Shown here: piece by piece, positions 7,288 to 8,839 of the stretch
Layout of the letters: each line of letters begins with the position of its first letter
How positions within the stretch are numbered: the stretch's first letter is position 1
Origin: an uncultured Bacteroidota bacterium
Lineage (GTDB): Bacteria > Bacteroidota > Bacteroidia > Chitinophagales > Chitinophagaceae
Length of the DNA: 14,846 bases
NCBI GenBank assembly: GCA_903906615.1
Contig: CAIVKT010000162.1
Span: forward strand, 1-14,846
Direction: 5' to 3'
Program-made: the position numbers and the translations under genes
Notes under the pieces: model-generated
The model's database searches: none
What the model was told of the DNA's origin: nothing
What the model saw: the letters and a program-made list of their open reading frames with translations, nothing else

Positions 7288-7361
7288 AGATGCTTCTCCT
7301 TCCTGACTGCAATATTATGCCAGATGAAGAAAGGAGGAGCGTTAAAATTAAGCGATAGATT

Positions 7362-7781
7362 TTATAGCGTTCCATAGGGATAAAAGAGACCGTATAAAAT
7401 ACAGGTGTCATTTTCTGCACCCATTGTAATTATAGTAAACGTCATAGTGTCGCCATTTACAATGCCGTTTCCTTTTACCGAATAGACGGAACCGCTTTGG
7501 GTTATAAAAGTAGTATCTCTCAATAATAAATGAGTATCGTCCACTATTGTTACATTTTCTTTGAAAGTATCATAGTTATTCCCGGAATGGAAATACCAAT
7601 AATCCACAATGTCACCATCAAAAAAGCCTATAGAATAAGGTTTCCCACAACTGGAAGTACCCTCAAAAAGACCTTCGTATTTTGATACAGGTACAAAAGT
7701 TGAAGAATTATTGCTTTTTTTCTTGCAGGAGATAAGAAATAGAGTAATGAAAAGGAAGGAAAAAGTGAGGATGTTTTTCAT
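7362..7781 (-). CDS. Small hypothetical lipoprotein
   Basis: A 139-residue protein with a lipoprotein signal: a hydrophobic stretch (ILTFSFLFITLF) and a lipobox LISC with Cys19, followed by KKKSNNSS. It is therefore expected to be lipidated and anchored in a membrane, or displayed at the surface as is common in Bacteroidota. The remainder has beta-rich character (YEGLFEGTSSCGKPYSIGFFDG; NGIVNGDTMTFTI) and two further cysteines, near residues 45 and 126, that could pair. The layout resembles small lipocalin-like or META-like lipoproteins, but no family is claimed. The open frame extends upstream to 7805 with a TTG. The ATG at 7781 gives the proper signal peptide and sits just downstream of a -7 element. 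The gene is AT-rich compared with the MFS gene next to it. Confidence 0.75.
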   Translation of the reverse strand: MKNILTFSFLFITLFLISCKKKSNNSSTFVPVSKYEGLFEGTSSCGKPYSIGFFDGDIVDYWYFHSGNNYDTFKENVTIVDDTHLLLRDTTFITQSGSVYSVKGNGIVNGDTMTFTIITMGAENDTCILYGLFYPYGTL

Positions 7782-7802
7782 CACATTTGTTTTAGGTGTA
7801 AA

Positions 7803-7810
7803 CAAATATA
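7803..7810 (-). promoter_or_regulatory. -7 element of the lipoprotein gene
   Basis: Minus-strand TATATTTG matches TAnnTTTG and ends 21 nt before the ATG at 7781. The surrounding sequence is very AT-rich, so a chance match is possible. Confidence 0.4.
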
Positions 7811-7849
7811 AAGAAATTTATTAAAAAAGATAGTCTGGTATCGCATGGA

Positions 7850-8383
7850 TCAATCTATGGATATTGTAAGGTGCCTGTTCAGGCCCGCTTCCACTATCTT
7901 TTTAAGGGTCATTACTTCCACATCCTGCTTGCCATTTTCGAGCCGGGTGATATACGTTCTTGATGTGCCGGAAAGCACTGCCACATCATTTTGAGAAAGT
8001 TTTGCTGCTAATCTTGCTCGTTTCAATAAGATGCCTACCGGGAATAAAAGTTGTTTATCCGGCACACTCAGTCCGTATAAAGTATCTGCGCCCACTTCGT
8101 AGGGCATTTTCTTTTTCTTGCCGTCAAAGCCTGTAATATATACGGTAACATTGCTCCATGACAGCGTATGATTATCAATATCCACTTTAGCAAATTCATT
8201 AGAATCGAAAAGAGCATATTCAGGGTCATCTGTTGTTACCTTCCATTCTTTTTTGAAAATATGGTTAAAGTCAAGTAGCCGGTCTTCTCCTGTACTGAAT
8301 AGCACAGAAATAGATAAATGTTGTTTATCGATCCGATTGATCTTTAAGATCTTTGGTAGCCGCTTTGATGGTTGGTCTTTCAT
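7850..8383 (-). CDS. DUF2442-like protein fused to an XRE-type HTH domain
   Basis: A 177-residue two-domain protein. Residues about 10-105 resemble DUF2442 (LSISVLFSTGEDRLLDFNHIF, then WSNVTVYITG and a C-terminal PYEVGADTLYG). Residues about 117-170 form a helix-turn-helix of the XRE/Cro class (LLKRARLAAKLSQNDVAVLS, then GTSRTYITRLENGKQDVEV). The HTH makes it the likely DNA-binding regulator of its own operon, comparable with antitoxin-type repressors. It begins one base after the stop of the upstream DUF4160 gene (TAA, C, ATG) and has a strong AAGGAGG ribosome-binding site 8 nt before the ATG. That is why the start at 8383 is preferred to the longer open frame reaching 8434. The palindrome in the shared promoter is its natural target. 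Gene and flanks are AT-rich. The toxin-antitoxin reading is an inference. Confidence 0.82.
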   Translation of the reverse strand: MKDQPSKRLPKILKINRIDKQHLSISVLFSTGEDRLLDFNHIFKKEWKVTTDDPEYALFDSNEFAKVDIDNHTLSWSNVTVYITGFDGKKKKMPYEVGADTLYGLSVPDKQLLFPVGILLKRARLAAKLSQNDVAVLSGTSRTYITRLENGKQDVEVMTLKKIVEAGLNRHLTISID

Positions 8384-8384
8384 G

Positions 8385-8683
8385 TTATTTGCCTCCTTTT
8401 CTTTTATTCTTTTTGTCTGCTGCTTTATTATCAATTGGTCTTAACCGTGGGTTCAACTCATAAAAGTTTTCTTCCACGATTTCCCTGTTACTTTCTTCAG
8501 CCAGCCATTCTTGTACTACTTTCAATTTCTTTCCCGGCAGATAGCCCCGAAATAGTTCACCTGTGCGGATGTTTATTAATGCTTCATCATCACCATAAGA
8601 GGCATGAATGTGAGGCGGCAAGTGTTCTCTTCCCTGTATGATTATGTTTACTCCGTCTTTATCAATTAATAAAAGGGGCCCAT
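8385..8683 (-). CDS. DUF4160 protein, start region possibly frameshifted
   Basis: The recognisable DUF4160 core is QGREHLPPHIHASYGDDEAL, then INIRTGELFRGYLPGKKLKVVQEW, with a lysine-rich tail; function is unknown. The frame remains open upstream to 8684, encoding DGPLLLIDKDGVNIII, but it contains no ATG there. The only standard start in frame is TTG at 8621, which would remove about 20 residues of the conserved domain. An ATG at 8683 overlaps in another frame: ATGGGCCCC would become an in-frame MGPLLLIDK if one more G were present. So either one base was lost in the G/C run, or a sequencing error occurred, or a -1 slip on the C run restores the frame. The span is annotated from that ATG and would give about 99 residues. 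It is the first gene of the pair with the HTH-DUF2442 protein. Confidence 0.7.
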
Positions 8684-8704
8684 CTTAGTAAGTCTATTCC
8701 AATA

Positions 8705-8735
8705 CAAATGTACCTAATTAGATACATATTTTCAA
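8705..8735 (-). promoter_or_regulatory. Promoter of the DUF4160/HTH operon
   Basis: On the minus strand TTG (8733-8735) and TACATTTG (8705-8712) are separated by exactly 20 bp, the ideal Bacteroidota -33/-7 arrangement. Transcription would start near 8698, about 15 nt before the ATG at 8683. The spacer is occupied by a palindrome listed separately. Confidence 0.75.
8708..8727. promoter_or_regulatory. Operator-like palindrome between -33 and -7
   Basis: ATGTACCTAATTAGATACAT is a 20-bp palindrome with only one mismatched pair (outer ATGTA/TACAT, inner CTAATTAG). It fills most of the spacer of the DUF4160/HTH promoter and overlaps its -7 element, the position expected for autorepression by the XRE-type protein encoded in the operon. 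Binding is inferred. Confidence 0.7.
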
Positions 8736-8839
8736 TTATACCGAAAATAAATTTTCTCCCCAATCCCAACGTTTTCCTGCTAAACAACGTCTTATTATTA
8801 AGGAAGGGTTAAAGAAGTGGTAAGAAAATTGTAAATAAA
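8736..8839. other. AT-rich intergenic stretch between divergent genes, no gene seen
   Basis: The divergent gap between the DUF4160 gene and the ECF sigma gene is about 307 bp (8684-8990). Its left part holds the DUF4160 promoter and its right part the sigma-gene promoter and structured leader. The middle is AT-rich, shows no open frame with coding character and no convincing repeat. Confidence 0.5.

Follow-up and report, generated by a model that had tools for sequence, protein, structure and literature searches.

What kind of module is formed by two adjoining minus-strand frames, one a DUF4160 protein and the other a DUF2442 part joined to a helix-turn-helix (HTH), with a palindrome in their promoter, and is it still complete? 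The frames lie in an uncultured Bacteroidota bacterium of the Chitinophagaceae, in a stretch of 14,846 nucleotides that we call the window. An earlier note, made from the sequence alone, had proposed an autoregulated toxin-antitoxin-like module with its operator in the promoter. This proposal is well supported by the comparisons below, since the palindrome recurs before related genes and the control without the HTH is negative.

Layout of the module and its two frames

Read along the minus strand from 8735 to 7850, the layout alone gives a promoter, a DUF4160 frame and an antitoxin gene (Table 1). The toxin frame comes first with the antitoxin gene directly behind it, which is the gene order of DhiTA. 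The stop codon of the DUF4160 frame (8387-8385) is followed by a single C (8384) and then by the ATG of the antitoxin gene, and the ribosome-binding site AAAGGAGG is placed 8 nt ahead of that ATG. Bacteroidota promoters have the consensus TTG at -33 and TAnnTTTG at -7; here the TTG and TACATTTG are separated by a spacer of 20 nt (8732-8713). In 500-base windows, GC content falls to 0.35-0.40 between 7251 and 9250, compared with 0.42-0.55 elsewhere. The coordinates thus bear out the earlier description of two frames one base apart, a strong ribosome-binding site for the second gene, a -33/-7 pair with 20 bp spacing, and an AT-rich island. Among the 12 near loci, 9 have TAnnTTTG at the matching -7 position and 6 have the full TTG-N20-TAnnTTTG in register with the operator; in L043, one of the other six, the sequence stops short of where a -33 box would be. 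A scan of the window with Rfam at gathering thresholds gave zero matches, and on this result we rejected an RNA element there.

Table 1. Features of the module and its promoter, in window positions
Feature	Position	Strand	Basis or remark
DUF2442-HTH antitoxin-repressor, 177 aa	7850..8383	-	homologues, model
XRE-type HTH, residues 117-166, putative operator binder	7886..8035	-	
DUF2442 domain, residues 9-110, putative toxin-neutralising part	8054..8359	-	hhalign
DUF4160 (DhiT-like toxin) frame, no in-frame ATG/GTG/TTG at expected start	8385..8684	-	PF13711
Ribosome-binding site AAAGGAGG of antitoxin gene	8392..8399	-	sequence
Out-of-frame ATG near relatives' toxin start	8681..8683	-	sequence, relatives
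-7 element TACATTTG	8705..8712	-	sequence; first five bases are the operator end
Operator palindrome ATGTATCTAATTAGGTACAT (minus-strand reading)	8708..8727	.	putative binding site of an antitoxin dimer
-33 element TTG, Bacteroidota-type promoter	8733..8735	-	sequence

The second product carries the XRE-type HTH that had been recognized by eye (PF01381, E 4.1e-11, 43.2 bits, cut-off 23); it falls with the Cro/CI-type domains, and the fold agrees. For the remainder, which had been read as DUF2442, the Pfam scan of the window's own antitoxin did not call PF10387, but a profile-profile comparison with 11 HTH-less DUF2442 partners recovered the relationship (hhalign probability 98.9, E 2e-17), and in the relative P0058 the PF10387 match does pass its cut-off. 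Of 297 candidate proteins, 193 are homologous to the antitoxin at E <= 1e-3, and all 11 named contigs matched by the antitoxin profile bear titles naming Bacteroidota MAGs or members of that phylum. The AlphaFold2 model of the antitoxin has a mean pLDDT of 92. The best Foldseek match of the whole model is NE0471 of Nitrosomonas europaea (2auw; E 1.7e-5, probability 1.00), with a TM-score of only 0.35 over both domains and 18% identity. We take NE0471 to have the same DUF2442-plus-HTH architecture and know of no function for it; judging by this match of a predicted model, the fusion as an architecture is not new. Matches to the HTH half only (L014-L029), in open frames of mostly ~100-125 aa, were seen in the genus and order, and two C-terminal fragments of a decayed second DUF2442-HTH copy lie ~3.5 kb from the module of the genus genome G004 (L121, 2047-2309).

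The DUF4160 frame is a toxin homologue by PF13711 (E 8.2e-15, 55.2 bits, cut-off 23). Its score with NF048015 (toxin_DhiT) is 47 bits, under the cut-off of 100, and on sequence we place it in the same superfamily and not in the NCBIfam equivalog itself. The predicted DUF4160 model gave no convincing match among solved structures. The source genome has four more DUF4160 matches (L001, L002, L003 and L005, the last at a contig end), and L002 has an 88-aa HTH-less DUF2442 partner just downstream.

The surroundings can be compared with the genus genome G024, whose copy of the neighboring sigma-factor matches at 97% identity, more than in any other of the 35 genus genomes except the source genome itself. 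Homology between G024 and the window is interrupted from 7325 to 8750, the latter position lying just ahead of the promoter, and in G024 a 476-aa frame occupies the slot between the equivalents of these positions. Given this break and the different occupant, the module, together with a small lipoprotein-like gene, sits in a variable chromosomal slot. The lipoprotein-like gene (7362-7805, minus strand) lies within that slot and has no Pfam match at E 0.01. We found no relative with the antitoxin profile in viral_contigs (22 pattern-matching stretches, none confirmed), nor any relative of the window's antitoxin in the plasmid collection, which argues against phage or plasmid cargo.

A putative operator conserved with the helix-turn-helix

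The palindrome ATGTATCTAATTAGGTACAT is 20 bp long with 9/10 pairs complementary, and it extends from within the spacer, of which it takes up the final 15 bases, into the first 5 bases of the -7 box. The earlier note had placed a 20-bp palindrome here and equated it with the spacer; the palindrome exists, but its position is offset by 5 bp, so that it runs into the -7 box. About 7 in 100 Markov resamplings of this promoter reach its palindrome score, so a palindrome alone is not rare in such AT-rich DNA and conservation is what counts.

We scanned 126 loci and dropped 7 duplicates, and 61 had a near-full-length DUF2442-HTH, counting L035 although it is ended by a contig edge. In 56/61 there is a DUF4160 upstream on the same strand; two of the five without one are L052, truncated at a contig end, and L070, which has only 313 upstream bases. 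We scored 55 of the 56 paired loci, leaving out L043, whose upstream DNA is not long enough (the alignment of near loci does show its operator). The control was 28 DUF4160 loci without a full HTH, including L120, whose HTH is truncated; by eye, 20/27 of the others have a DUF2442-like frame of 78-96 aa just downstream.

With a score that combines palindromy and the CTAATTAG core (maximum 16), 44/55 HTH-bearing promoters reached at least 12, compared with 0/28 in the control (Fisher p 1.6e-13, a value that ignores relatedness) and 4.8% of resampled promoters. A direct search gave the same direction: GTAYCTAATTAGRTAC at <=3 mismatches is found in 26/55 promoters versus 0/28, and at <=4 mismatches in 35/55 versus 1/28, that one being 216 bp away. 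Only one pair among the 55 antitoxins is >90% identical (L068 and L112, both in one genome). In the 12 near loci the mean information is 1.76 bits in the operator columns and 0.50 and 0.41 bits in the flanks. Scores below 12 are found for the remaining 11/55 HTH-bearing promoters, including that of L008, which is closely related (69% identical) and has different upstream DNA. Recurrence of the palindrome before orthologous pairs, which the earlier note had suggested looking for, is thus found, and the HTH-less control lacks it. A conserved palindrome, predicted to be an operator, over the module's own promoter is what an XRE autorepressor would have.

In L120, DUF4160 and DUF2442 are kept, the HTH is truncated and the promoter has no operator, so that HTH loss and operator loss coincide in this one case.

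The operator is the sole match within the window at <=3 mismatches. The exact core, TAYCTAATTAGRTA, is found a single time in the source assembly (3.54 Mb in 757 contigs, 86% complete), in this promoter, and is present in 3/35 genus genomes (the source genome, G004 and G020) and absent from 32/35. In G004 it occurs once, before the orthologous module. One further site with one mismatch, seen at the sequence level only, is at G000:C270. In G020 there are three exact TACCTAATTAGGTA sites (L163, L164 and L165) that share their flanks and, from these flanks, probably lie within a dispersed repeat; we saw no DUF2442-HTH frame beside any of the three. Given that the exact core is otherwise confined to module promoters, the operator appears to be private to the DUF4160/DUF2442-HTH module. 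The uniqueness of the core in the source assembly argues against a wider regulon.

The half-sites vary among loci, and we compared their outer base with residue 142 in the recognition helix at the 43 loci scoring at least 12, leaving out L035, which lacks the helix. The pairs were 18 Arg with G, 2 Arg with T, 19 Lys with T and 0 Lys with G; the remaining 4 of the 43 have one G arm, and 3 of these have Ala or Ser at 142. The Fisher p of 3e-9 ignores relatedness: the tree has 3 changes per trait and 1 independent (starred) pair, so the association loses its significance when descent is taken into account. That residue 142 tracks the outer half-site base (Arg-G, Lys-T) is suggestive at this level.

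The state of the toxin frame

A feature that had gone unnoticed in the earlier note is that the DUF4160 frame has no proper start. It opens after the TAA at 8687-8685, and its first in-frame TTG is at 8621, within a conserved motif, with no earlier ATG, GTG or TTG. The consensus N-terminus of 76 DUF4160 relatives is MAPLLIDKDGV, and MAP is at or near the N-terminus in 11/14 among the relatives listed. The nearest relative, P0121, is an intact protein of 98 aa that is 95% identical over 96% of the length. Programmed frameshifting into the frame has no support by eye.

Similar damage is seen elsewhere. In 13/55 loci, the source locus included, DUF4160 is disrupted and the antitoxin frame covers its profile: the start is lost or shifted in L006, L047, L075 and L078 (L047 with a frame change too), L007 has a deletion, and L011, L038, L050, L051, L072, L074, L113 and L118 are interrupted by an internal stop or a change of frame. 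For L072, one TAA inside the antitoxin match was flagged in the first search. Since the loci were gathered by antitoxin homology, 13/55 is a description and not an unbiased rate.

We lean towards the view that the toxin has really been lost in the source genome. The main alternative, which we hold to be a serious possibility if somewhat short of even, is that the toxin is intact in the organism and the pair fully working, the start being missing through a mistake in assembly or sequencing, or else being a rare codon other than ATG. This alternative departs from our reading solely in the condition of the toxin. The frame is otherwise open as far as the antitoxin and nearly identical to P0121, and the fragmented, incomplete assembly would leave room for such an error. 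However, 12 more of the 55 loci are disrupted, including the start losses or shifts in L047, L075 and L078, which makes a real lesion plausible; many of those loci are also MAGs.

It is unlikely, in our judgment, that DUF2442-HTH is a stand-alone regulator for which the palindrome serves some other end, beside a DUF4160 that is a mere neighbor in the course of being lost. The disrupted toxins beside open antitoxin frames, the five loci with no DUF4160 upstream (two of them with truncated or short upstream DNA) and the G020 core sites, next to which we saw no DUF2442-HTH frame, would fit such a regulator. Yet the disruption count is biased by the choice of loci through their antitoxin, 56/61 do have DUF4160, and the exact core stands once each in the source assembly and in G004, both times before the module. 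With the core absent from 32/35 genus genomes and the G020 flanks repeat-like, no wider target set is visible. As for the palindrome being a chance feature of AT-rich DNA under ordinary regulation, the ~7/100 resamplings of this promoter are in its favor, but the operator is conserved in orthologues and absent before HTH-less pairs, and we reject this very improbable reading on 44/55 versus 0/28 and the 4.8% of resampled promoters.

Relation to DhiTA and a proposed model

The statement in the earlier note that neither DUF has an established role is out of date. DUF4160 and DUF2442 are DhiT and DhiA, a type II toxin-antitoxin system of Dickeya dadantii 3937, and a relative is known from Thermus (PMC8198452; PMC12724237, both as far as the available text goes). 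According to the available text on DhiTA, both Dickeya and E. coli are inhibited in growth by excess DhiT and not by the DhiTA pair; with the Dickeya genes in E. coli, DhiA lowers its own promoter by ~50%, and three toxin-antitoxin complexes including DhiTA lower their own promoters by 70-99% (PMC8198452). DhiTA and our module have in common a DUF4160 gene first and an adjoining DUF2442 gene second, and where the DhiTA promoter is autorepressed the module has a conserved predicted operator over its core promoter. Unlike DhiTA as presented in that text, the module has an XRE HTH in the antitoxin, a readable candidate operator and a toxin frame without a start; a word search of the DhiTA main text found no mention of HTH, DNA-binding, palindrome or inverted repeat (PMC8198452).

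The Thermus thermophilus plasmid pair PEM likewise has DUF4160 (87 aa) followed by DUF2442, and its DUF2442 gene is needed to tolerate DUF4160: in the portion of the report available, no transformants were obtained when the plasmid lacked the DUF2442 gene, and transformants were obtained when it lacked the DUF4160 gene (PMC12724237). Its antitoxin is plasmid-borne and 92 aa long, whereas that of the module is fused and 177 aa long. In E. coli the Thermus pair had no visible effect and its plasmids were stable (PMC12724237, same portion); a DUF4160 that is toxic in one host may thus be harmless in another.

HipB, C-protein and phage-type XRE repressors are without a DUF2442 part and have different partners. 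Aca10, according to the accessible text, binds as an HTH dimer to a palindrome of 19-21 bp that overlies the promoter of its own operon; it regulates anti-CRISPR genes and has NE0471 among its structural neighbors (PMC9410881). The module resembles Aca10 in having a palindrome over its own promoter, but nothing here suggests an anti-CRISPR function. In the mostly open-access DUF2442/DUF4160 literature, as far as its text was available and supplements aside, we found no description of an HTH-fused DhiA or of its operator. Within the mostly open-access papers covered, NE0471 is named in the Aca10 paper only.

The reading that we prefer is a DhiTA-type (DUF4160/DUF2442) type II operon in which the antitoxin has an XRE helix-turn-helix joined to it, and on comparative grounds we consider this module type, together with its autorepression, likely. 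We infer binding, repression and neutralization as follows. An antitoxin dimer would bind the single palindrome of 16-20 bp over the spacer and -7 box and, once bound, would exclude RNA polymerase from its own promoter; the DUF2442 part would be the part that binds the toxin, and the toxin, where made, may serve as co-repressor. With no usual DUF4160 start, the source locus probably survives as a self-repressing antitoxin whose toxin is dead or poorly made, unless the assembly is in error there.

More tentatively, and with considerable doubt, HTH-fused DhiA may be a family widespread in Bacteroidota, with a recognition rule in which residue 142 sets the outer base of the half-site, autoregulation freed from the toxin by the fused repressor, repeated toxin loss and the antitoxin kept as a self-limiting anti-addiction gene. 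If this is true, the window would be a snapshot of toxin loss. An uncharacterized gene pair of Bacteroidota is now placed in the young DhiTA superfamily with a concrete candidate operator, and the natural series of protein and operator variants offers direct tests of repression and DNA recognition. If the toxin is indeed lost with the repressor kept, the locus would be a clear case of an antitoxin with its own DNA-binding domain outliving its toxin.
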